21,171 nucleotides of DNA, from the IMG/VR virus record IMGVR_UViG_3300032278_002353, positions 1 through 21,171 of that record; one strand, given 5' to 3'. Shown piece after piece: positions 1,831 to 19,598 of the stretch. Every line of letters begins with the position of its first letter. Position 1 is the first letter of the stretch. The notes under the pieces were generated by a model. That model was not told where the DNA came from, did no database searches, and saw only the letters and a program-made list of their open reading frames with translations. The translations under genes were made by a program, and so were the position numbers. This DNA comes from a virus.

Positions 1831-3441
1831 TTATGTATTTATTCCAGCTGTGCCACTGCCACTACTTCCGTTCCAACCCCATGGATTAGGACTATTATAT
1901 GGCCAATATGCTATTCTATTTGGCGCACCATAACGTCTTGGAATAACGTTATCCTCATTAAATGATTCATCTGTACCACTATCGTAGGAATTACTTGTGG
2001 CATGGATTGCAAGAAAATCTTTAAATTGTTGAGCAGTTCCACCTGGATTTGCTTGTAACCATAATGCACCCATTCCAGTTATTTGTGGCGCCGCCATACT
2101 AGTACCACTTATTCTTGATGTATAGTGGCTACCACTTCCTGGATAAAATTGTTTAGCATAGGTACTTACGGTACTTGTAGCACTTGTAATATCATCACCA
2201 CCTGTTATTATATCAATGCGTGGTCCTCGTTCACTGCTTTGAGTTATAAATTCTTCAGTACCAAATAAAGTTCTGTCTAGACTTGCTACGTATATAGTAT
2301 CATCACTATGTGGTGATCCAGGACGGTTATAATAGTAATCTACACCGAGATCACCAATGTATCTCATAAAGCTATCATGAATGCCACTATAATAAGGAGC
2401 ATTAGCTCCTGCAATAGGATGATAACCATTACCTGCAGATTTAACACAAATTATACCTGCATCTGTTAATTGTTCTTGTTCAACATCATCTGAAGGACTT
2501 TGATAAGGAATTTTATAATAAACTATTCCATATTGTTCTAACCCGCCACCCATGAGATCTTGTTGAGCAATACCTTGATCTACACCTTTAAAAAATATAT
2601 GCGTAACTTGTAGAGTTGATGAAAATGATGCTCTCCATCCCCAACTTTGATTTACAATAGTAGGACGTTTAAATCCTGTGTTAGGGTCAATTGGTTTTTG
2701 AGTATGCCAATGTCTAATAAGATCATATTTGTCAGTAGTGGGAATTTCATTCCCAGCCCCACCAAAATGTCTTAAAGAATAAATTTTTGCATTCTTGGCC
2801 CAACCAAAAGTTTTACCTGCGGCAATACCTGCACAATGACTTCCATGCTCACCAGCTCCAGCCGGATTTGCTGTATAATGACCTGCTGGCATTGCCCCTG
2901 CAACACCTGATTCTGTATACCAATCTATTTGTTGAAATCTTGTAGTACCATTAGCATCTTCCCATTCAGGATGTCCTGTAGGATCAATACCGTCGTCTTG
3001 TATAACAACATCAACACCAGTACCATCTAGTGTATATGTATAATCGGCTGAATATGTATTACTTGTTGAAGCAGGATCAAACTCTTTAATCATGTGTCTG
3101 TATAAACCCCAGTTCTTTGCATCTGCGTCATTAGATGTTGATCTATCAAATTGAGCAGTCTGTGTTTCAAATAGTTCGTAGTTAAAAACCTCTGGATCTG
3201 GTTTTGTTTCTACTGCATGAATTCTTGGATCTTTTGATAATTCTGCCGCTTCGGCATCAGTCATCATATAATGAGTAATTCTATCATTGGCTTTCTTAGC
3301 ATACGCTACGTCAACAGTTCTATTTGGAACGTTTGCACTAACAGCCGCATCGCTAGTAGTATCTCTTTCTAGTTCAGCTTCTATTTCTGCAATATCAATA
3401 CCTTTTTTAGTAATAACTTTATATTCTTTTTCACCAGCCAT
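1831..3441 (-). CDS. Subtilisin-like (S8, proteinase K-type) serine protease with intact triad
   Basis: This 536-residue protein has an N-terminal I9-like propeptide region (about 5-80, ending TDAEAAELSKDPRIHAVE), then a peptidase S8 domain. The catalytic residues are visible: Asp149 in VVIQDDGID, His199 in EHGSHCAGIAAG, oxyanion Asn338 in VKSAGNG and Ser448 in ISGTSMAAP. Cys after HGSH is typical of the proteinase K branch. The C-terminus has NRIAYWPY, shared with the upstream paralogue. No signal peptide or membrane segment is seen, so action in the virion or in the infected-cell cytoplasm is more likely than Sec export. The ATG at 3441 has AGGAA eight bases upstream and lies two bases after the stop of the paralogue, so the two are co-translated. 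A role in fibre maturation or attack on host surface proteins is inferred from position among fibre genes. Confidence 0.92.
   Translation of the reverse strand: MAGEKEYKVITKKGIDIAEIEAELERDTTSDAAVSANVPNRTVDVAYAKKANDRITHYMMTDAEAAELSKDPRIHAVETKPDPEVFNYELFETQTAQFDRSTSNDADAKNWGLYRHMIKEFDPASTSNTYSADYTYTLDGTGVDVVIQDDGIDPTGHPEWEDANGTTRFQQIDWYTESGVAGAMPAGHYTANPAGAGEHGSHCAGIAAGKTFGWAKNAKIYSLRHFGGAGNEIPTTDKYDLIRHWHTQKPIDPNTGFKRPTIVNQSWGWRASFSSTLQVTHIFFKGVDQGIAQQDLMGGGLEQYGIVYYKIPYQSPSDDVEQEQLTDAGIICVKSAGNGYHPIAGANAPYYSGIHDSFMRYIGDLGVDYYYNRPGSPHSDDTIYVASLDRTLFGTEEFITQSSERGPRIDIITGGDDITSATSTVSTYAKQFYPGSGSHYTSRISGTSMAAPQITGMGALWLQANPGGTAQQFKDFLAIHATSNSYDSGTDESFNEDNVIPRRYGAPNRIAYWPYNSPNPWGWNGSSGSGTAGINT
1836..1843 (-). 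promoter_or_regulatory. T4-type late promoter box AATAAATA
   Basis: The minus strand reads GGAATAAATACATAAGAAG, a 7/8 match to the T4 late consensus TATAAATA. It is embedded in the last codons of the protease gene. With T4 spacing, transcription would start near 1830. That gives a 13-base leader with AGAGAG before the ATG at 1817. Confidence 0.6.
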
Positions 3442-3443
3442 TA

Positions 3444-4961
3444 TTATATTCCTACATTTGTTGTTAGTGCTCTATTAGCCGCAAATGGAAAATAAGCTAT
3501 TCTATTATAGCCATTCTGTAAACTTCTTGAATTTGAGAAAAATGTTGATGGTGTATTCTCGTCTGTTGATCCTTGAAACAATAAATCTTTGACTGAATTG
3601 TCATGCCACCACTTGCGTAATTGTGCAGGTGTCCATCCAGGGTTTAATTGTAATAGTAAACAGCTCATTCCAGCAACTTGTGGTGTAGACATTGATGTTC
3701 CTGAGTAAAGGTGGACATCTGTATCATTAGAACTACCAGCACTTACAATATTTGTGCCAGCCGCCCATATATCAACTCTAGGACCTTTATCACTACTGTC
3801 ATTAGTAGCTTCTTCAGTTCCCTCTAATTCACTATCTAAATTACCTACAACAACTGTGTCAGGTCCTATATTGCCTGCACCTCTGTTATAATATACAGGG
3901 TTGCCCGCCGCAATATTACTTGTAGCAACACTTCGTATAATATGATTGTTATAATCTATATCTCCGAAGAAACAAAGTTTTTGATATTGATTGCCTGCAC
4001 TTTTAAAATAGTGTACACCTTCGTCTTGCATTTCTTCAACTTCAGCCGATAATCCATAACCAGCTGTATTAAATTTGCTGTTGGTATCGCCGACCATTCC
4101 GAATGATTCGTTCTTAACACTTCCTACACTAGTTCCTCTAAATTGAATATCTGTTATACTAGTAAAGTAACCTTTTGATCCCCAACTGGCACTTACTACT
4201 GTTGGTCGTTTATAACCAGTAACTGGGTCAACGTCTTTAGCTCTATGGAATTCTTTTATTGCATCAAACCAAAATGCTTGATCGAAACTGTTATAAGGTA
4301 TATTATAAATTTTTGCATTCTTGGCCCAACCGTAATCTTTTCCTGTAGCAGTTCCACAACAATGGGTTGCGTGATTACTCGCACCTGATACATTAGTATA
4401 ATCAATATCGGGCATAGCACTACAATTAGGAAGTGTGTTCCATTGGAAAGGTACTAAACGACTAACGCCGTTTCTGTCTTGCCATTGCTCATGAGTAAAT
4501 CTAATTTTACTACCTTCTTGGTGTATATAATCTATACCTGTTCCGTCTAAATGATAATCGTAAGTTGTTCCAGCAGGAAGATCTTGAGTGACATTTTGTC
4601 CCCATAAATTTGTTTTGTTAATTTGTCTTAAGAAGCCCCAATTAGCCCTTGTGTCTGAAGTAGCGTCTCTAGTCCAATCACCAGTTTGTTCATAGTCTAA
4701 CCAATCATCATCCCATACAAGTGGAAGCTCAACACCACCAACTCTGGGATCGTTTTGAAGTTTAACTGCTTCTTCGTCTGTAAGAGCTACTTCAAAGATT
4801 CGTTTACTAGAAGGTCTAGTGTTTACGTTTTGTACTTGTCTGTCTGGAATTATATTACTGTCAACTTTGCTGTCAACAGTTGTGTCTCGATTAAGAGCGT
4901 CAATGACTTCTTCTTTGCTAAAGCCTTTGTGTAAAGAAACAACATAATGTTTTTCACTCAT
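3444..4961 (-). CDS. Subtilisin-like (S8) protease paralogue with Glu in place of catalytic Asp
   Basis: This 505-residue protein is co-linear with the protease at 1831-3441. It has an I9-like propeptide (about 4-79, ending TDEEAVKLQNDPRVGGVE), an S8 domain and an NRIAYFPF tail. His197 (NHATHCCG), Asn324 (FKSAGNQ) and Ser423 (YSGTSMSTP) are retained. The strand that should carry the catalytic Asp reads LDGTGIDYIHQEGSK, against LDGTGVDVVIQDDGID in the sister, so position 149 is Glu rather than Asp. HGTH has also become HATH. The enzyme may be weak, altered in specificity or a structural pseudo-protease. It starts at ATG 4961 with GGAG in the 9-base gap after the 951-residue fibre gene, and lies 2 bases ahead of the sister, so it belongs to the same late transcript. 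No signal peptide is seen. Confidence 0.88.
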   Translation of the reverse strand: MSEKHYVVSLHKGFSKEEVIDALNRDTTVDSKVDSNIIPDRQVQNVNTRPSSKRIFEVALTDEEAVKLQNDPRVGGVELPLVWDDDWLDYEQTGDWTRDATSDTRANWGFLRQINKTNLWGQNVTQDLPAGTTYDYHLDGTGIDYIHQEGSKIRFTHEQWQDRNGVSRLVPFQWNTLPNCSAMPDIDYTNVSGASNHATHCCGTATGKDYGWAKNAKIYNIPYNSFDQAFWFDAIKEFHRAKDVDPVTGYKRPTVVSASWGSKGYFTSITDIQFRGTSVGSVKNESFGMVGDTNSKFNTAGYGLSAEVEEMQDEGVHYFKSAGNQYQKLCFFGDIDYNNHIIRSVATSNIAAGNPVYYNRGAGNIGPDTVVVGNLDSELEGTEEATNDSSDKGPRVDIWAAGTNIVSAGSSNDTDVHLYSGTSMSTPQVAGMSCLLLQLNPGWTPAQLRKWWHDNSVKDLLFQGSTDENTPSTFFSNSRSLQNGYNRIAYFPFAANRALTTNVGI

Positions 4962-7858: not shown

Positions 7859-9232
7859 TTATGCCATACCTAATAATCTGAAAGTCCCGGAACTAAAAGT
7901 ACCGTTAAAACAATGCAATTTTAAATCAGTGAAAGTCGTGACCGCACACATTCCTGACCACAGAACTGTACAAGGACCATCATCGGTTGAAATTCCTTGT
8001 CCAGTCATCACCACTGCGTTTCCGTTTACTCTAAAATCTATATAGCCGCTCCATCTTAATGGAGATGCCCAAATATTATGAGGAGTTAAAACAACGTATT
8101 CTCCGTTCCCGCCTGTCAGAGTCGAGTTCCCGTCTGCCATAAATGACCCTGAATTGTCAAATGAATTAGTACCGTTTTGAGCCCAAGTATCTATACTTGA
8201 AAACCCGTCATTGCTTATTGATAACTCAGTTCTGGTATTGGCGCTCCTGACAACATCTTCTATTTCTAGTCGCACAACACTATACGCGGCAAGATTTAGA
8301 GTTGACCATGTTAACGTCTGGGTGGTAGGGGTATCGGATTCAATTTCTGTCCAACCACCGCCGCCACCACTTGCCGCCGCAAATGTTACTGTATCTGTGC
8401 CAGCATTAGTAGTAATTGTCATATTACTACCAGCTTCAAATGATAATGTATCTGTAGTTGTATCTGCTACAACATCTGATTGACCATCTACTGATATTGT
8501 TTTGAATGAAGATTCATTGGTTTCACCTTCGCCACCTGATTGTTCTATCCAAGCATAGTCTGAACCGCTCCAAGAAAGAACATAACCACTAGTTGGATTA
8601 CTTTGATTTATATGTGAATCAACTCTTGTGTCTGTATAATATAAATTAGTGCCTTCACTTAAATCTGTTGTAGAAGCGGCTGTTATACGTGCATCAGCTC
8701 TTGCATCTGTGTAATATAAATTAGTGCCTTCACTTAAATCTGTTGTGGTAGATGGAATTGTTGGTGCACCGCTTAAAACTGAATATGGAATAGTGCTATT
8801 AGCAGTATCAACTAGTAATGTTGAATCATCACCAACTATTGGGTTACTTGATTGAAGTCCACCACTTAATTGAAAATTACCTGAAGCATCTACTTTTAAT
8901 GTAGAAGTACCTAAATGAATAGTATTTCCACTTAGATATAAATCTTTAAAACGATGTGTACTAGAACCGATATCGTAAGCAACATTTGTGTCAGGAATAA
9001 TATTTCCTTTTACAGTTCCGTCTAAATTAATTTTACTGTTTAATCCATCAACTAGTGTAGTAGAGTCATCACCAAATACAGAACCTTTAATATCTGTAAC
9101 ATGAGCTATTGAGCCGTCATGTCTTGCAAATAGTTCTGTGAAGTTAGCATTAACTTTAGTAAAGGCTGTACGGATAGGATCTCCGTCACCTTTGTTTGCA
9201 CTTGTTCCAATGTTAATATTTTGTTGTGCCAT
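7859..9232 (-). CDS. Tail-fibre protein (457 aa) with NINIG module and YYTD repeats
   Basis: The N-terminus MAQQNINIGTSANKGDGD, continuing IRTAFTKVNANF, is the module shared with two other proteins here. After fibre-type text such as YDIGSSTHRFKDLYLSGNTI (about 86-105) come two 25-residue tandem units, each with TTDLSEGTNLYYTD (about 163-212). The segment from FKTISVDGQSDVVADTTTD to a GGGGG linker (about 243-295) closely matches one in the 951-residue fibre (FKTIEVSGQSDVVADSTTD). The C-terminal 165 residues, beginning WTEIESDTPTTQ, differ from the neighbours and may be a separate globular tip. The ATG at 9232 is one base beyond the stop of the giant gene, with GGAAGAG upstream, so coupling is likely. 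Exact virion position and receptor are unknown. Confidence 0.8.
   Translation of the reverse strand: MAQQNINIGTSANKGDGDPIRTAFTKVNANFTELFARHDGSIAHVTDIKGSVFGDDSTTLVDGLNSKINLDGTVKGNIIPDTNVAYDIGSSTHRFKDLYLSGNTIHLGTSTLKVDASGNFQLSGGLQSSNPIVGDDSTLLVDTANSTIPYSVLSGAPTIPSTTTDLSEGTNLYYTDARADARITAASTTDLSEGTNLYYTDTRVDSHINQSNPTSGYVLSWSGSDYAWIEQSGGEGETNESSFKTISVDGQSDVVADTTTDTLSFEAGSNMTITTNAGTDTVTFAAASGGGGGWTEIESDTPTTQTLTWSTLNLAAYSVVRLEIEDVVRSANTRTELSISNDGFSSIDTWAQNGTNSFDNSGSFMADGNSTLTGGNGEYVVLTPHNIWASPLRWSGYIDFRVNGNAVVMTGQGISTDDGPCTVLWSGMCAVTTFTDLKLHCFNGTFSSGTFRLLGMA
8637..8746. repeat. Tandem repeat, two 35-bp identical cores with 75-bp period
   Basis: The cores at 8637-8671 and 8712-8746 are identical over 35 bases. 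They encode the TTDLSEGTNLYYT units of the 457-residue fibre. The 75-base period keeps the frame (25 residues). This is a coding repeat, not a regulatory one. Confidence 0.85.
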
Positions 9233-9233
9233 C

Positions 9234-12200
9234 TTACACTCTTCCTACTACAGCTTGGATCGTTCCTTCACCAGCATCGTTTTTATCTTCAAGAGCTTTA
9301 CCTATTACTGTTCCTACTTCTGGTTTAGTACTTGCACTCGCAAAGCCTGATGCCGATGCTCCTCCGGCAGTTACAAGCATCTGTCCTTTTTTAACCATAC
9401 CAACAACTTTAACTTTAGTTCTACCTTGTAGTGCTACGGCTGTTACATTAGAACCTTCTAATTCTGAATTCATTAAGTATGCAGGATTTTCGGAAACTAC
9501 TCCAGCAACTCTATCATCTCCACGAAGTGTTGTAACAGTTAGTTCTTGTTCGCCACCAAAGATTACAACTGTACCTGGTTCGTATACCGCATCTGCTGTA
9601 TAATTTTCTGCCAAGTCAGCGTATCGTGCCTGTGTAGCTGTACCACTAAATGTTGTTGCATAAATTGTATTATATTTTTTACTTGCTGAACCAATAATAT
9701 ATGTGTCATCAAGTGATGGTTCAAATCCTGTTGCTGTTGCTATAAGTACACTCGCTCCGTCGGCTACAAGACCAATTTGTCCTGCGGCAGTAAATCCTGT
9801 GTTTGCTCCTATACTAATACCTGTGCTTTGTGCATCAAGTTCGCCTGGCGCTTCAAGGAATGAAGTGTGTATCCAGTCAACACCTATTCTTGATTCTCCA
9901 GCAAGTGCTGAGTTTTGTTGGAAGTTACCTTCTGATACGCCTGTACCTCCAATATTAAGACTTCCTGTTAAACTAACAGTTGGATTAGTTGCTCCAACTG
10001 AACTCATAAATATTGCTCCACCTGGAGTATATAAGTTAACAGTAGTACCAGTAGTATCTATAGTTAGGTATGTATCAACCTTAAGTCCTTGACAAGCTAC
10101 GTTACCTGATCCATCAGTTTTAACAATTTTGCCAGCTTCACCAGTTGTAGTAGTGTCGATTATTCCGGATTCTGTAACAATGTCGGCAAATGTAACTTCT
10201 GTAACTGGTCCTGAAACACCTGAATTATTAGCTAATGCTGTTTTGTCAGCAATATTAATTATTTTATCATAATTAACTGAACCAGTAGTTATTTCTATCC
10301 AACCGTCAGTTGCTGTAAAGTTAGCACTATCAAAACTAGCAACGCCTAAATCTGCTTGTGTAATTGCTGTAGCGTTTGCTCGAGTAGTTGCCGCATTTAA
10401 GTTTAATTTACTTTGAGATATATCCGCCGCTGAGTTTACATCTGCGTTTACAATGCTATCAGGTGCGTGTCTAAATTCTAATGTTGCACCAGATGCCGTT
10501 CTTTCAACATGAAGTGTAACATCAGTTGCTGGATCTTCTGTAGCCAATGCATATTCATCATATGGGCCTTGTTTATTTTGAGCTGTAACTCCACCACCAG
10601 TATCAATAAGGTCAGCTGTATTAAAGTTAGTGCCTGATGTTAATGTGTATGTTAATAAGTTATGTGCTACACCGGCAAGTGAAACGTTTTCAACGTCAAC
10701 AACTGTACCTGTTGCACTTGTTGAGTTACCAGTAATAGTATCATTAACTTGGAAGTTGCCGCCTGATGCCGGTGCTGTATAAATTCTATATTTTCCTGTT
10801 GTTACAAGTAATTGTGCCGCGGCAACTGTATTAGTTTCTACATCAAGTTGTTCTGGAATTGTATCACCAGCCGCAATTAATCCATCAACATAACTCTTAG
10901 TCGCCGCATCTTGGTTATCGGATGGATCTCTTAAGTTTACAACTGTAAATGTTCCACCTGCATTTTGATTACCAGTAAATGCTAGTACACCATCTCTAGA
11001 TAATGCACCAGGACCTATTTGGTTATTTACGGCAACGCCTGCATGGTTAAATCCTAAACGTCTATTAACATAACCTCTTACTGCTGATTCAGTTGGTACT
11101 GAGTCACTGGCATTGTCAGTCATGGCATCGTCTGCACTAAATTCACTAGCTACAACGCCACGTTTAAATCCTAATCCATCTAAGTTACTTAAAGCAATAC
11201 TTGCCGAGAATGTAACTGTACCTGTACCTTGGTCAACTGTAAAGAATCTACCAACTCTAAACATACCATCTTGGTCTGTACTTACATAGAATACTCTACC
11301 TTTATCACGTTCATCAACTTCGTGATCTTGATCTGGAAGTTGTGCCGGATCACCTAATGTTACATTCGGGAAATTTGTTTGGTTATAACTACCTGTACCA
11401 ATGTCTAAGAAATCGTGTCCTGTTGCTCTACAAGTTGAAATATTAATAGTAATATCTCCACCTTCAGCTTTTTGTAGTCCACATCGAAGTGTAACAATTG
11501 TTGTAGTATTTCTTACTGTACTAACAAGTCCAACTGCTGATGCCGGAACGTTAATATCTGAAGCCGCAAGGTCTTCAATTAGAAGTGTAGCAAATGTAGT
11601 TCTATCAGTATAACTTTTAATAACATGAGTTTTACCATCCCAAGCAAAAATCATATCACCTGCATTTAATCTATCAATATCTGCTGTTGATGTTACTTGT
11701 CCAATAGCAATAACAGTATCACCTGCTGTGTCACCCATTGTTGTTCCTGAACCAGCAAATGTGTTATTTTGTGCTTCGCCATTATCAACAAGTACTTTAA
11801 TATATTTGTATGTACTATCAAATGTAACAACTCGTTCAGTTGCCGCTAAAGGTTGACCTAAAGCATTTGATACAGCATATCCAATAGTTCTGTATGTATT
11901 ATCAACAGCTTCGTCAAATGTAATTGCTGTACTAGGTCTAGTAATAGTTGTGTCAACACCAGTAATTCCAAAGTTTAAATTATTTCTAATAATAATTTTC
12001 TGGTCATGTGCTAGTGTATTAATCAATCCTGATTTTGTTGTATTGTCTTGTCCTGTTGTAGCAATATTCAATTGATAAACAGCTTCATCTCTAACTGAAT
12101 TTTTAAATGTAAATCCTGTAATGTTAGCTGTGGCACTTGTAGTATATGTAATTTTTTGTACTATACCGCCACTAACGTATGTGTGTACAATTCCACTTTT

Positions 12201-15200
12201 AAATGTACTAAACACCATAGTATCTGTAGTAGGTACATCATAAATTTGGAAAATACCTGAAGACTTTTTAGCGGCTATATCTGGATATGCTTTCTGTCCG
12301 AATGGACAACTTAATAAAACATTGTCAACTTTAATATAATCAAGTTTGCCATATCCGTGTGCTGATGCTGTAGTAAGTGTAACTAATCCAGTTGTATTAT
12401 CATAATCAAAACCTGTAACATTAAAACCACCACCTACGTTTGTTGCTGAGATTAATTTAGATGTACCACCACTAACGTAAGTATGTTCAACGTTGCTAGG
12501 TGGTAGGAAGAATCCTAATGTATCAGCATCAGGTTTAGTCTTAACCATAAAGACACCTGAATCTGTAGGCGCCGGATAAACTTTAACACCAAAAGAACAA
12601 GACAGTTTAATACTAAACAAATCACAAGTACCAGCCGCAGTAAGTCCGTGTGCTGTAGCACAAGTAACTGTAGCAATACCTGAAACATTGTCATAAACAA
12701 AATTTGTAATGTTTACTCTAGTTGGACCACTAACAACACCGCCACTAACGTAAGTATGTACAATTGCACTTGTACCTAAGTCAATTTCAAATTCATCTGC
12801 TGTTAGTCCTGATGCTAAAACTGTAACAGTTGTTGATGGTGTAACGTGTGGATATGTTTTATTTCCACTAGGACAACTTATTGCTATATCTCGTATTTCA
12901 ATTAAGTCGTCAATAGCTCGTCCGTTTGCAACTGCTGTAATTTCAGTTTGTACACCTGTAATAAGAGTTGATTGTACTGTTGAAATTTCATATCTAGCTC
13001 TACCTGTTGCTCCGCCATGATCAATTTCAACTTCACTTTTTGCGTGTGGAACGTATTCTGTATCACGAACAAATATTTTTAATGAATCAACAGGGTGATC
13101 ATATGTCGCCCCATCATCATAGATTCTAGCAGTCTGAACCATATTATCTACTGTCGTAATTAAGTCTGGTTCTTCATTTGGATCTGATCCTGCCGCTACT
13201 AGTCCATATGTTCCATGAGAGTTAGATCCGTTTAATGATCTAATATCACTACCATTGTTGGAAAAATAAGCTACTTCAGTATAATATGTAAATTGCGAAA
13301 CTAGTTCAGCCATTGCACCATTATTACAAACAGTACCATAACCTAAATCATTAAGTTGTACAAAATCATTTGCCAACATACTTCTGTTACCAGAAGTTTG
13401 TAAAGTAATATCGCATGGCATAGGTTGTGTAAACCCGCCGTTGCTAATACCTGATGTTGGATTTAAAAGAAGTTTAGCAGTACCTGCCTGTTGATCATAT
13501 TCTGCAACAGCATCAACTTGGTATCTATGTCCGTCAATATAAAATGGACTTGGTACTTGTGGTTTCTTTAAGCGTAAACCTTGTCCAACTAAACTTTGTA
13601 CGTTTAATGTAAAGTTATTGTCTTTGCTGTTAACTACTGTAGTAAGGTTTCCAGCAAAACCATCAATATATAGTCCGCCTCTAAATGCTTTTTTGTTTAT
13701 ACTTCTCGCAAAACTTGAGTTCGTTTGTCCATATGGTGATTTAGTTAAAATTGCACCATCTGGATCAAGAACAGCCATAAATCCGCCGTGTCCTTCACAA
13801 GTTAGATTTCTTAAAATTGTTGTATCATTCATTAAGAAGACATCCATGTCTTCGTTATTTTTTGCCGTACTAGCTGAATTGTCTTTGTCAGTTAAGTAAT
13901 GATGTCCATATCCTGGATCATCAAAGTCTGGTAAGTTACTAAGACCGTTTACAATAACTTCTTTTAAAAATGTTAATAGTGTATTAACCTTAGTTTGTGC
14001 TAACGCTTCACCTTGTGTTGAATCAACTACTTGCGAAGTAACTGATTGTGCTGATGTCCAAGCCGCATTAGTTAAAACAAATCCAAAGATTTCTTTCATC
14101 TTATCTATAGCGTCACCTGTTTCAGTTTGTGCACCAGGTACAGTCGTTGCCGCGTTATCAAAATATTTGTCAGCGTTAAAGTGAGTCTTTGAATTACCAC
14201 CCCATTTTAAATCAAATATAAGTCCATCAATGATGTAGCCCATATCTCTTTCACATTTTTGACTATCACTTGATGTAAGGAGTGAAGGATATGTTGTGTT
14301 AATATATGTAATAACTTCGTCTTTAACATATTCTTTGTTTAAAGTTATTAGTTCAGTTGCATTAGGATTCTGTTCTGTTTGTATAGCAATTCCATCAAAG
14401 ACAGGATCTCTATAAAAATGTAAACCTTTCCAAGCACTTTCAGATACGCCTGGTTTAGGTTTAATAATTACACGTCTAAATTCGTCACCTTTAAGTGAAA
14501 CATTGTTAGAAACTCTAATTGGATAATGTTCCCAATATGTTCCGCTTTCTATATGAATACTAATTTGCGGATCTTTAACTTTGAAACCAAATTCTAATTC
14601 TTCACCTATTTCAAATTCTATAGGTTCTAATAGTTCTAATTCAATTGTATCTTCAATTGCGCCTACTGTATATTTTACAATTCGTCCAAGAGATTTAGAA
14701 GTTTTACCTCTTATAATTTTACCTGGAATAAGATCGCTGTTTAGTGGGTTAGCTTGATCACAGAAGCCTTGACTACCATTCATAATGGTGATTTCCCAAG
14801 TGCTACCTTCAACAAGTTGTGGTGCGTCTTTATAATTAGGACCTGTTATAAGTGCTATAACAATATCCCATTTGGCAAGAGTAGCTACTTGTCCAACAGC
14901 GTCAACAATTTGACCTGTGTCAATTACTTGTGTATATGTGCTTTGGTATAAAGTTGTTTCAGCTGTATTTGTAATAACTTTGTTATGTAAATTTTTAGCA
15001 AATTGTTGTGCCGCAAGAGTTTGTACACTTTGTGATTGTCTTGCTCTTTGTCCGCTTACAGAACTGTAATATCTAAACCCTGTATTTCTAGCATGGTAGT
15101 TGGCTGTTACACCATCTAACATATCTAATACAATACCATCTAATGTATAACCTAAATCTCTTTCACATAAATCTCTTAAGTATACGTGTTCAGGATAAGT

Positions 15201-17330
15201 TTCATTAATATAAGCTACAGTTTCTGCAATAATAAAGTTTCTGTTTGCATCTGTTAATATTTTTACTTCTTCATAGCCACTGCTATTTTTTACACCTGTT
15301 GTTACTACTGTTGCTTTATTATTCCCAGCATTATACGTAATATCTTGTATGTAAGGTCCAATATTATCTGGTGCTGTGTCAGTTATTTCTTCAGCTTTAA
15401 GTGCCGCTTGATGTAAACTCTTGTATGCATAATTTAATGCTCTACCTTCACTGCCGACAGGTACGCCACGCATTGTGTCGTCACCATATGAACTTACATA
15501 TAAATTTGTTTGTGATGCAAATGCAGAATTGTCAACATAATATTTTGATGCTGATTGTAATACATCTGGATTAGTAGCAGGAATAATAGTACCTGTGTAT
15601 TCTCCAGTTTGTGTAAGTGTGTTAAGAATAAGAACTAGTTCTGTTACTCTTTCTGATGAACCTGGTTCACCATCATTTGCAATTGTTTTTTGTGAAGTAG
15701 CTGTTTGTAGTGATGTATATGCAGTATTAGTTAAAATATAATCTTTAACAATATCACGTAATTTGTCATTAATTGATACAGCATAAGCTATTTCGCCTGC
15801 ACCTAATTGTGAACTAGCACCATCAAAATAAAGTTTACCTACTCTTACTACTTCTGAGTTCCCACCAAATTTAATATCATGTGCAATTGCATCAATGTTA
15901 AATTTTGTATCTCTTTCACATTTATCATGACGTTGGCTACTTACTACATTATTAGCAAGAGCACTTACAAAAGTATGTGCGGTTGTATTACTTGATATAC
16001 CAACATTTACTGTAATTGTTGTTGCACTTATAGCCGTAATTGCAACTGCCGTATTGTAGGCATAATCAAATCCGCCAGGTGCACTTGATCCAGTTGCTCT
16101 TGGATAGGTATGATTTGTTGCGTTACCATCTAGGGCACAAGTAAATGTTAAACTGTTTGTATTAATCTTAATAAGATTTTCAGTTGTTAAAGGATGAGAA
16201 CCAATAGTTAATACTAATTCTCCTGTTGTCGGTGTGTATACTGCATCTGTTGTATTATAAGCTACTGTAGTATGAGCGCCTGGGTTGTTTGTATCAAACC
16301 AAGCCATTACTTCGTCAGCTAGATATTCTTTATTTTGTGTTATAAGGCTATGTGCGTATGGTGATTGTGGAGTAGCGCCTGCATGAGCACCTGGATGATC
16401 ATGTAAGTACAATGCTCCAGTCATCGAATCGCCTTCGCGTCTTACAACAGATTTTCTTGGAAGTGCTTCTGAAGAAATCCAGTTACCAGCTAATACACTA
16501 TCATATGCGGCATCAAACATTGTTTGTACGCCAGTACCACTACCTGCTGGTACACTAATTTTTATTCTTGTATTATCGTCGTTGTTTTGTGCTTCAGACT
16601 CTGATGCATGAAGACTTACTTGATCAACTGTAACATATCTTAGATAATAAGTTGTTCCTGTTGATAAGCCAGTAGCATCTTGGCCTGTTGAATTATATCT
16701 GTATGCAATACCATTTGAGCTACTCTCAAATCCGTGTGCAGTTGCAACAACGTTGCCACCTGAAAATGCTTCAATAATAAATGTATAAGAACTAGAACTT
16801 CCGGGTTCTGGTCTTATTCTAACTTGTCCAGAACTTCCTGGGCCACCTGATGAACGTAAATATCTGGTGTCTGCATAGCCTCGTGAAATAACTAAATCAT
16901 CAAGTGTAAATGTTGTACCGTGTGCTACGTTTAAAGCAAGAACGGCCGCTGAAGAAATATTAGGATTAGCAATACCTTGGTTAGCCGCATTTAATGGACC
17001 TCCAAGTGCCGGAGTAATATCTGTACTAATAATTGTTCCAGTATTGCTAATTGTAATTTTATCATTTGATAACGAATCAATTGTAATACCTTGTCCGCCT
17101 TCAATACTTTTCATTAGTATTGCGTCACCACTAGCGTTTGATTGCGGAACCTTGTATGCTCCTAGTTGATCAGGAACGTCACTTAATGATCTAAAAGATA
17201 TTTGTCCGCCTTGACCAAAAACAGCATAAAGTTCTGTAAAGTTTTCATTAGCTTTACGAAACGCTTCTCTTATACTATCACCAGTACCGTCGTTACCTTC
17301 TACACCTATGTTAACATTTTGTTTACCCAT
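9234..17330 (-). CDS. Giant fibre-like virion structural protein (2698 aa)
   Basis: The largest gene here. The N-terminus MGKQNVNIGVEGNDGTGD, continuing IREAFRKANENFTELY, is the shared NINIG module. Three dispersed copies of a domain containing CERD (about residues 471, 722 and 1026) follow. Pectin-lyase-like beta-helix text is seen at LYVSSYGDD (about 609) and HIESGTYWEHYPIRVSNN (about 925-942). Three tandem units ending HTYVSGG lie at about 1460-1722. A segment with GRVFYVSTDQDGMFRVG, ALSNLDGLGFKRGVV and VPTESAVRGY (about 2010-2090), and the C-terminal domain starting YADLAENYTADAVYEPGTVV (about 2570-2698), both recall large structural proteins of marine T4-like phages. It is probably a long fibre or baseplate-attached component. 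The start at 17330 has TAGGA nine bases upstream and follows the Fe-S carrier gene by three bases. Structural role is confident; exact location is unknown. Confidence 0.88.
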   Translation of the reverse strand: MGKQNVNIGVEGNDGTGDSIREAFRKANENFTELYAVFGQGGQISFRSLSDVPDQLGAYKVPQSNASGDAILMKSIEGGQGITIDSLSNDKITISNTGTIISTDITPALGGPLNAANQGIANPNISSAAVLALNVAHGTTFTLDDLVISRGYADTRYLRSSGGPGSSGQVRIRPEPGSSSSYTFIIEAFSGGNVVATAHGFESSSNGIAYRYNSTGQDATGLSTGTTYYLRYVTVDQVSLHASESEAQNNDDNTRIKISVPAGSGTGVQTMFDAAYDSVLAGNWISSEALPRKSVVRREGDSMTGALYLHDHPGAHAGATPQSPYAHSLITQNKEYLADEVMAWFDTNNPGAHTTVAYNTTDAVYTPTTGELVLTIGSHPLTTENLIKINTNSLTFTCALDGNATNHTYPRATGSSAPGGFDYAYNTAVAITAISATTITVNVGISSNTTAHTFVSALANNVVSSQRHDKCERDTKFNIDAIAHDIKFGGNSEVVRVGKLYFDGASSQLGAGEIAYAVSINDKLRDIVKDYILTNTAYTSLQTATSQKTIANDGEPGSSERVTELVLILNTLTQTGEYTGTIIPATNPDVLQSASKYYVDNSAFASQTNLYVSSYGDDTMRGVPVGSEGRALNYAYKSLHQAALKAEEITDTAPDNIGPYIQDITYNAGNNKATVVTTGVKNSSGYEEVKILTDANRNFIIAETVAYINETYPEHVYLRDLCERDLGYTLDGIVLDMLDGVTANYHARNTGFRYYSSVSGQRARQSQSVQTLAAQQFAKNLHNKVITNTAETTLYQSTYTQVIDTGQIVDAVGQVATLAKWDIVIALITGPNYKDAPQLVEGSTWEITIMNGSQGFCDQANPLNSDLIPGKIIRGKTSKSLGRIVKYTVGAIEDTIELELLEPIEFEIGEELEFGFKVKDPQISIHIESGTYWEHYPIRVSNNVSLKGDEFRRVIIKPKPGVSESAWKGLHFYRDPVFDGIAIQTEQNPNATELITLNKEYVKDEVITYINTTYPSLLTSSDSQKCERDMGYIIDGLIFDLKWGGNSKTHFNADKYFDNAATTVPGAQTETGDAIDKMKEIFGFVLTNAAWTSAQSVTSQVVDSTQGEALAQTKVNTLLTFLKEVIVNGLSNLPDFDDPGYGHHYLTDKDNSASTAKNNEDMDVFLMNDTTILRNLTCEGHGGFMAVLDPDGAILTKSPYGQTNSSFARSINKKAFRGGLYIDGFAGNLTTVVNSKDNNFTLNVQSLVGQGLRLKKPQVPSPFYIDGHRYQVDAVAEYDQQAGTAKLLLNPTSGISNGGFTQPMPCDITLQTSGNRSMLANDFVQLNDLGYGTVCNNGAMAELVSQFTYYTEVAYFSNNGSDIRSLNGSNSHGTYGLVAAGSDPNEEPDLITTVDNMVQTARIYDDGATYDHPVDSLKIFVRDTEYVPHAKSEVEIDHGGATGRARYEISTVQSTLITGVQTEITAVANGRAIDDLIEIRDIAISCPSGNKTYPHVTPSTTVTVLASGLTADEFEIDLGTSAIVHTYVSGGVVSGPTRVNITNFVYDNVSGIATVTCATAHGLTAAGTCDLFSIKLSCSFGVKVYPAPTDSGVFMVKTKPDADTLGFFLPPSNVEHTYVSGGTSKLISATNVGGGFNVTGFDYDNTTGLVTLTTASAHGYGKLDYIKVDNVLLSCPFGQKAYPDIAAKKSSGIFQIYDVPTTDTMVFSTFKSGIVHTYVSGGIVQKITYTTSATANITGFTFKNSVRDEAVYQLNIATTGQDNTTKSGLINTLAHDQKIIIRNNLNFGITGVDTTITRPSTAITFDEAVDNTYRTIGYAVSNALGQPLAATERVVTFDSTYKYIKVLVDNGEAQNNTFAGSGTTMGDTAGDTVIAIGQVTSTADIDRLNAGDMIFAWDGKTHVIKSYTDRTTFATLLIEDLAASDINVPASAVGLVSTVRNTTTIVTLRCGLQKAEGGDITINISTCRATGHDFLDIGTGSYNQTNFPNVTLGDPAQLPDQDHEVDERDKGRVFYVSTDQDGMFRVGRFFTVDQGTGTVTFSASIALSNLDGLGFKRGVVASEFSADDAMTDNASDSVPTESAVRGYVNRRLGFNHAGVAVNNQIGPGALSRDGVLAFTGNQNAGGTFTVVNLRDPSDNQDAATKSYVDGLIAAGDTIPEQLDVETNTVAAAQLLVTTGKYRIYTAPASGGNFQVNDTITGNSTSATGTVVDVENVSLAGVAHNLLTYTLTSGTNFNTADLIDTGGGVTAQNKQGPYDEYALATEDPATDVTLHVERTASGATLEFRHAPDSIVNADVNSAADISQSKLNLNAATTRANATAITQADLGVASFDSANFTATDGWIEITTGSVNYDKIINIADKTALANNSGVSGPVTEVTFADIVTESGIIDTTTTGEAGKIVKTDGSGNVACQGLKVDTYLTIDTTGTTVNLYTPGGAIFMSSVGATNPTVSLTGSLNIGGTGVSEGNFQQNSALAGESRIGVDWIHTSFLEAPGELDAQSTGISIGANTGFTAAGQIGLVADGASVLIATATGFEPSLDDTYIIGSASKKYNTIYATTFSGTATQARYADLAENYTADAVYEPGTVVIFGGEQELTVTTLRGDDRVAGVVSENPAYLMNSELEGSNVTAVALQGRTKVKVVGMVKKGQMLVTAGGASASGFASASTKPEVGTVIGKALEDKNDAGEGTIQAVVGRV
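12165..12890. repeat. Three tandem protein-domain repeats in the giant fibre gene
   Basis: Each unit has a SC.xG.K.YP motif (near 12880, 12600 and 12300) and ends in HTYVSGG (12738-12758, 12465-12485 and 12165-12185). The end motifs are exactly 273 and 300 bases apart, so units are 91 and 100 residues. A YDN..G..T.T.A.AHG phrase lies between units. DNA identity is high only around HTYVSGG, so these are older duplications. Confidence 0.8.
14200..16345. repeat. Three dispersed copies of a CERD-containing domain in the giant fibre gene
   Basis: The copies centre on an identical 12-base core at 14244-14255, 15156-15167 and 15909-15920, which encodes the CERD motif. Each copy has an upstream helix-like segment (for example LNKEYVKDEVITYINTTYP) and a downstream ID....D...GGN-type segment. 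The spacings of 912 and 753 bases are multiples of three. Beta-helix-like text lies between copies. This looks like a repeated domain of unknown function. Confidence 0.7.
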
Positions 17331-17333
17331 TAT

Positions 17334-17657
17334 TTAAAATCCTACGGATTCTCCACACCCGCAACTATTTTTTGTTGCTGGGTTTGAAATATCAAAAAAT
17401 GATCCAAATAATTCTTCTTTATAATTAATTACTGAGCCCATTAAGTACATTTGACTTAATGAGTCAATAGCAAATTTACCTTTATCTAAATCAATTACTT
17501 CGTCTTTATCTTCTACAGCGTCTGACATAGTCCAGTCATATTGCATTCCTGCACATCCGCCACCCTTCATAGATAGGCGTACAACCGGTTTATTCTTACT
17601 AGCCAGCATATAATTCATCTGGTCTTTTGCTGATTCTGTCAATGTTACTATTGCCAT
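17334..17657 (-). CDS. A-type iron-sulfur cluster carrier (IscA/SufA/ErpA, HesB family)
   Basis: This 107-residue protein has the normal family length and all three conserved cysteines: one in GGGCAGMQY (about residues 33-41) and two in the C-terminal SCGCGES. DLFxI-type family text appears as LFGSFFDISNPATKNSCGCG. A-type carriers accept 2Fe-2S or 4Fe-4S clusters from a scaffold and deliver them to apo-proteins in the cytoplasm. A GTG at 17660 directly precedes the ATG at 17657. AAGGA lies six bases before the ATG but only three before the GTG, so ATG is chosen. It is the first gene after the late promoter at 17677 and sits three bases ahead of the giant fibre gene, so it is expressed with virion proteins rather than with early metabolic genes. 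It is most likely acquired from a bacterial host. Confidence 0.93.
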   Translation of the reverse strand: MAIVTLTESAKDQMNYMLASKNKPVVRLSMKGGGCAGMQYDWTMSDAVEDKDEVIDLDKGKFAIDSLSQMYLMGSVINYKEELFGSFFDISNPATKNSCGCGESVGF

Positions 17658-17676
17658 CACTTTTCCTTGTTCTATG

Positions 17677-18932: not shown

Positions 18933-19598
18933 TTAATTTGCTGTTATCACCTTTAATTTTTGTACAGTTGCTTTTAACAATGTTGTGTATTCTGGGTTTG
19001 TTGAAAATAAATCTAATGTATCAATTAATTTATCATAGTTAAATATCCCTGCTATAACCATTTCTTCTCGTAATTCTCTAAAATCTTTGTATGCAGGATG
19101 ACTATTTAATAAGTCAACATAGTCTTGGATTGATTGACATTTTGTTTTATATACTTTAACACCCCATACTGCTTTTGGATTGTCTTTAGGTTTTATTTGC
19201 GGAAGTTTGGGATCCCAAGTTCTAACACCAAATAAAGCATTCCCTTCAATTGCAAATCTACTTGTACCCCAACCTGATTCTAATCCTGCTTGGGCTTCTA
19301 TAATCATTGATGGAATTCGTAAACTGTGGGGGGTTGTAAAGTTAATATAATTAACGCATTTTCGTACAGCTAAAATAAAACTTTGTTGATCAGTATAAAC
19401 AAATTCGGGTTCGTGTAATCCAAGTTTAACTGCTATTTTAGATTGTTCAATTTCAACACGTTCTGTTATCTTGTCAATAATGTAATTATTTGGTTTAAAC
19501 GTGCCAAAGCCAAAGGCAAAGGCAACGAGTAATATGATTAGTATTACTCCAATAAAAATTCTAAATTTTTTATTATCTTTTAGTTTCATCCTTTTCAT
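18933..19598 (-). CDS. Membrane-anchored Bax-type glucosaminidase (putative endolysin)
   Basis: This 221-residue protein has a basic N-terminus and one hydrophobic segment (about residues 13-32), then a glucosaminidase domain of the Bax/GH73-related type. IPSMIIEAQAGLESGWGTSR (95-114) carries the predicted catalytic Glu107. It is followed by FAIEGNALFGVRTW (115-128), a family hallmark. Such enzymes cleave the glycan strands of peptidoglycan. The single N-terminal helix would place the domain in the periplasm as a signal anchor, or as a signal-arrest-release endolysin. The first ATG (19598) lies essentially at the start site predicted from the promoter at 19604-19632. The second ATG (19589, Met4) has AAGG directly adjacent and may be the real start. 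Downstream lipoprotein and small membrane-protein genes support a lysis role. Confidence 0.82.
   Translation of the reverse strand: MKRMKLKDNKKFRIFIGVILIILLVAFAFGFGTFKPNNYIIDKITERVEIEQSKIAVKLGLHEPEFVYTDQQSFILAVRKCVNYINFTTPHSLRIPSMIIEAQAGLESGWGTSRFAIEGNALFGVRTWDPKLPQIKPKDNPKAVWGVKVYKTKCQSIQDYVDLLNSHPAYKDFRELREEMVIAGIFNYDKLIDTLDLFSTNPEYTTLLKATVQKLKVITAN

Follow-up and report, generated by a model that had tools for sequence, protein, structure and literature searches.

Protein B, a 505-aa homologue of peptidase family S8, carries a glutamate at the catalytic-acid position. It is encoded on the minus strand (positions 3444 to 4961) of the window analysed here, the whole 21,171 bases of an IMG/VR virus record. 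Textbooks treat the Asp-His-Ser triad of subtilisin as a constant, and the Glu side chain is one carbon longer than that of Asp. We consider it likely that B comes from a T4-type, jumbo-like marine phage and is an active S8 protease with a Ser423-His197-Glu149 triad, its activity being predicted. The swap is ancient, fixed and recurrent and the rest of the active site is intact, so B is probably a working protease.

B matched Pfam PF00082 (E = 3.2e-21) and PHROGs 9158 and 3677. Its tandem sister, the S8 protease A (536 aa, positions 1831 to 3441, minus strand), with the canonical Asp149/His199/Asn338/Ser448, matched PF00082 with E = 2.9e-25 and was 34% identical to B (E = 3e-79). The Pfam alignment to B opened at profile position 46, past the Asp motif. 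In the pairwise alignment, YHLDGTGIDYIHQEGSKIRFTHEQWQD of B paired gap-free with YTLDGTGVDVVIQDDGIDPTGHPEWED of A, and residue 149 was E in B (codon GAA, 4515 to 4517, minus strand) and D in A (codon GAC, 2995 to 2997, minus strand). The same E149/D149 pairing was found in a 149-row multiple alignment, and a comparison of E-only with D-only profiles paired the same columns with 100% probability. All three alignments uphold the gap-free Asp/Glu correspondence proposed in the initial annotation and, together with the structural model, rule out a misalignment of residue 149. Sequencing error or recent mutation was ruled out as well, since Glu is fixed in orthologues from many metagenomes; Glu was also present in a contig of 99% identity found in a different metagenome. 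By motif numbering, we take Glu149 to be at the position of Asp32 in subtilisin BPN'.

The other catalytic residues were kept in both proteins, as initially annotated. The equivalents of the catalytic His (His197, CAC, 4371 to 4373), the oxyanion-hole Asn (Asn324, AAT, 3990 to 3992) and the catalytic Ser (Ser423, TCA, 3693 to 3695, in the box SGTSMSTP) of B, all on the minus strand, correspond to H199, N338 and S448 of A. Ala198 (GCA, 4368 to 4370, minus strand) adjoins the catalytic His, and the Asp-x-Gly loop that follows the acid has been remodelled. B shares with S8 (subtilisin/proteinase K, PF00082) the fold, the acid-His-Asn-Ser order, the oxyanion Asn, the GTSM serine box and, probably, a propeptide of I9 type. 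It differs by having Glu instead of Asp as the acid and Ala instead of Gly after the His, and by the loss of the Asp-[ST]-Gly loop. The profile match, the subtilisin fold and the His, Asn and Ser motifs were thus all found, and the catalytic Asp was not; with Glu149 in its place, B is a homologous variant of S8 rather than a canonical member. Sedolisins (S53), which have the subtilisin fold, carry Glu in the position of the His and Asp in that of the oxyanion Asn. Since both His197 and Asn324 are present in B, a sedolisin is ruled out. Acetylcholinesterase and some lipases have a Ser-His-Glu triad with Glu as the acid; these hydrolases have the alpha/beta-hydrolase fold and are unrelated to B, the likeness being functional only. 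The literature searched, which consisted of open-licence papers, yielded no description of a subtilase with a natural Glu triad.

An AlphaFold2 model of B, built from a joint alignment of 67 sequences, reached a mean pLDDT of 91.2 and a pTM of 0.81; with orthologues alone the model was poor (pLDDT 66). Foldseek matched it to proteinase K-like enzymes (best E = 7.9e-20, with target-normalised TM-scores of 0.77-0.83) and also to viral S8 proteins. In the model, Glu149 closes strand 144-149, His197 starts helix 196-206, Asn324 comes after strand 317-321 and Ser423 starts helix 422-439. This is the subtilisin arrangement, with Glu149 predicted at the strand end where Asp normally sits. Residues 4-78 were modelled as beta-alpha-beta-beta-alpha-beta. 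By this topology, residues 1-78 (4728 to 4961, minus strand) would form an I9-like N-terminal domain, a probable propeptide. The initial claim of a preserved propeptide therefore agrees with the model topology, and its sequence support was weak: Inhibitor_I9 matches were obtained for 12 of the 67 relatives (best E = 0.018), and B was not among them. In the joint-alignment model, the I9 domain was docked unlike in pro-subtilisin, with a Foldseek rmsd of ~22 over the joined domains.

For a wider comparison, A, B and a B alignment served as queries in a scan of 2.9 million viral contigs. After identical copies were dropped, 149 S8 ORFs were aligned, including 11 homologues from phage records. The acid site was Asp in 97 and Glu in 51, and one ORF ended short of it. 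With one distant Glu protein (on contig L026) set apart, Glu stood at position 149 in 50 of 50 orthologues covering the site. These proteins (26 after thinning at 85% identity) formed one clade with an SH-aLRT support of 100 and a long stem; its placement as sister of the A clade was moderately supported (94). The initial annotation had asked whether Glu149 is fixed in one clade, and it is. Identities inside the Glu clade drop to 45%, and Glu149, His197, Ala198, Asn324 and Ser423 do not vary in any of the 50 orthologues; together with the GTSM box, they are also invariant in 30 aligned orthologues with at least 46% identity to B. Asp was found in the sister-clade and cyanophage relatives, in the homologues of the jumbo phages Atu_ph07 and Phosso, and in all 11 sampled homologues from phage isolates or single-cell viruses. 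The Asp-to-Glu swap in B is ancient and fixed. Across 195 non-identical sequences, the acid site held only Asp or Glu, which fits a required carboxylate and not relaxed constraint.

A cellular origin of B was sought in 84,980 genomes, and this candidate was dropped: the scan gave weak matches only, mostly to the serine box. As a crude baseline, all 33 S8-like ORFs from these genomes in which the acid motif could be parsed by a regular expression had Asp.

An inactive B paired with its active sister was one of the readings offered in the initial annotation; B would then serve A as a partner or regulator. At the majority of loci B immediately precedes A, and the stop codon of the one frequently overlaps the start codon of the other; this tandem arrangement speaks for such a pairing. 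So does the precedent of CspB/CspA/CspC, a paralogous arrangement of active and pseudo-enzymes (PMC6636752). In C. difficile, S494/H183/D126 of CspB became G485/T170/D105 in CspC (PMC6636752). CspA and CspC resemble B in being paralogues encoded together with an active subtilase (PMC6636752). However, they have lost two triad residues, in CspC the Ser and His with the Asp kept, and B keeps Ser and His and has changed the Asp to Glu. The pattern of a known pseudo-subtilase is therefore the opposite (PMC6636752), and in PIMMS2 orthologues it is likewise the His and Ser motifs that were lost (PMC5520436). A loss of Ser and/or His of the CspC kind was not seen here, both residues being kept in every row covering them. 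The His, Asn, Ser and GTSM box, unvarying over wide divergence, also argue against an inactive B. Furthermore, at ~25 loci (contig fragments, several of them the same contig twice) B was found without another S8 gene in the fetched flanks (L044-L047, L050-L055, L183-L185, L187, L188, L190-L201). Whole-record searches of two of the B-alone records (26 and 36 kb) revealed no second S8 gene. Given the invariant His, Asn and Ser, the carboxylate-only site and the occurrence of B without A, we regard a pseudo-enzyme as improbable; this half of the initial proposal is disfavoured.

Other arrangements were seen as well. One contig (L189:6001-13025) carried four tandem S8 genes, the first of the Glu type and the next three Asp-type genes of unequal length. 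At L059:8-2250, a B orthologue was matched over 2.2 kb next to an intact A, and an intact ORF for this orthologue was not seen there; this B is probably a disrupted copy.

Over comparable pairs, B had a pN/pS of 0.27-0.38 and A one of 0.35-0.52; the constraint on B is therefore no weaker than that on A. B is under purifying selection and is not decaying. Four of the 68 columns conserved in both groups separated the Glu clade from the Asp rows. These were column 149 (D to E), column 198 directly after the catalytic His (G to A, with Gly in every Asp-type row and Ala in every Glu-clade row), column 321 just ahead of the oxyanion Asn (A to S) and column 364 (P to N). By motif comparison, they presumably correspond roughly to BPN' positions 32, 65, 152 and 168. 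Three of the four were no more than 4 residues away from a catalytic residue (p = 0.016 in a post hoc hypergeometric test, with the columns picked afterwards and conserved columns clustering at active sites regardless). The active site of B looks retuned, not broken.

The distant Glu protein on L026 shares 27% identity with B; its acid site is Glu, and Pro follows the His. It is the third S8 protein of this contig (L026:3455-11145), on which the two independent Glu-type lineages and an Asp-type A gene are found together. The protein belongs to a second family of 78 loci with 27-30% identity. Among the 48 members covering the acid site, 40 had Glu and 8 had Asp; His, Asn and Ser were retained wherever covered. 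Parsimony on the family trees gave 3-4 Asp/Glu changes, at least two of them forced by strongly supported branches. The nearest Asp/Glu pairs were 95% (L323 with Asp, L315 with Glu) and 94% identical (L308 with Asp, L307 with Glu), and no column besides the acid site separated the two forms. In the larger tree, the second family fell outside the B clade, on a long branch whose exact place is unsure. Judged from these sequences, its Glu arose independently of that in the B clade.

The switching between Asp and Glu in the second family bears on all the alternatives. For a pseudo-enzyme paired with its sister, it is a further point against. A slow or self-limiting enzyme had been the other half of the initial proposal. 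In its strict form, the Glu triad would suffice only for one slow, single-turnover intramolecular cleavage of the prodomain, after which B would be a structural tail protein. Conservation of the triad and prodomain is compatible with a need for self-processing alone, and the tail and baseplate gene neighbourhood fits too. Asp mutants of subtilisin BPN' reportedly retain weak activity, as Carter and Wells are said to have found in 1988. The conservation of B could also come from single-turnover self-cleavage or from a structural role. However, exchanges of Asp and Glu among proteins 94-95% identical, with no linked changes, suggest that the two acids are equivalent, not that Glu brings a large rate penalty, and we hold the single-turnover form of this reading to be unlikely; on a slow protease more broadly, the data point neither way.

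Least probable, and in our view very doubtful, is that Glu149 is a bystander and another carboxylate serves as the triad acid. In the Glu clade the loop past Glu149 has been remodelled, and other invariant Asp residues (D144, D233, D292, D336, D397) are available. Nevertheless, D144 is also present in the Asp-type rows and so is not a gain, the predicted strand and helix placement sets Glu149 exactly at the Asp position, and the second family exchanges Asp and Glu at this very site with no other separating column.

The large contigs carrying B had a T4-type gp23 capsid protein, and psbA was not found in them. The capsid protein of one B contig was 67-70% identical to those of the jumbo phages Phosso, Vibrio 2.275.O and PA5oct, and that of a second-family contig 65-67% to the same three. 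The record of the window is itself without a capsid gene, so its place among these phages is taken from the shared gene pair. In the window, B and A are surrounded by a minus-strand cluster of tail genes, with gp9/10-like connector proteins, a YHYH protein and a 2,698-aa tail protein resembling cyanophage tail fibres. A gp9/10-like N-terminal module (QNINIGT...GDxxR.AF) opens three tail proteins (1113-1817, 7859-9232 and 9234-17330, all minus strand), which suggests a shared baseplate attachment module. Adjoining the cluster is an IscA/HesB-like gene for Fe-S assembly (17334-17660, minus strand, PF01521), a possible auxiliary metabolic gene. An endolysin-like protein with a glucosaminidase domain and a hydrophobic N-terminal stretch is encoded at 18933-19598 (minus strand).

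Tail and baseplate genes were also the neighbours of the homologues. The cyanophage subtilisin-like proteins of PHROG 9158 / T4-GC 292 (P-SSM2, S-SSM7, S-CREM1, S-H38) are homologous S8 proteins encoded beside baseplate and tail-fibre genes, and differ from B in having Asp at the acid site. Several Asp-type relatives (L091, L122, L130, L063, L140) were 1,300-2,300 aa long and fused to long tail-like, repeat or laminin-G domains. Two B orthologues (L018:8001-10451 and L075:3741-6215) had ~300 additional C-terminal residues, for which no Pfam match was found in L018. From the gene neighbourhood and the fusions to tail-like or lectin-bearing proteins, B is probably associated with the virion tail.

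For B as an active protease, we propose the following course. Duplication would have given B and A, and the active site of B would then have been altered, from Asp to Glu and from Gly to Ala after the His, with two further changes placed by motif near the oxyanion hole and the S1 pocket. These changes suggest an altered rate or specificity, not a loss of activity. Glu149 would orient and charge His197 as Asp does. B would remove its I9-like N-terminal domain by self-cleavage, and the processed protein may act in the tail of the virion or at the stage of tail assembly.

On balance, we think that a working Ser-His-Glu triad has arisen in phage subtilisins on two or more occasions and that in one family the acid toggles between Asp and Glu, so that the 'essential' Asp would be exchangeable. 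Profile searches or activity filters that require the Asp would label such proteases truncated or dead. The natural Asp/Glu pairs, some of them 94-95% identical, offer a ready-made measure of how well the triad tolerates the longer acid.
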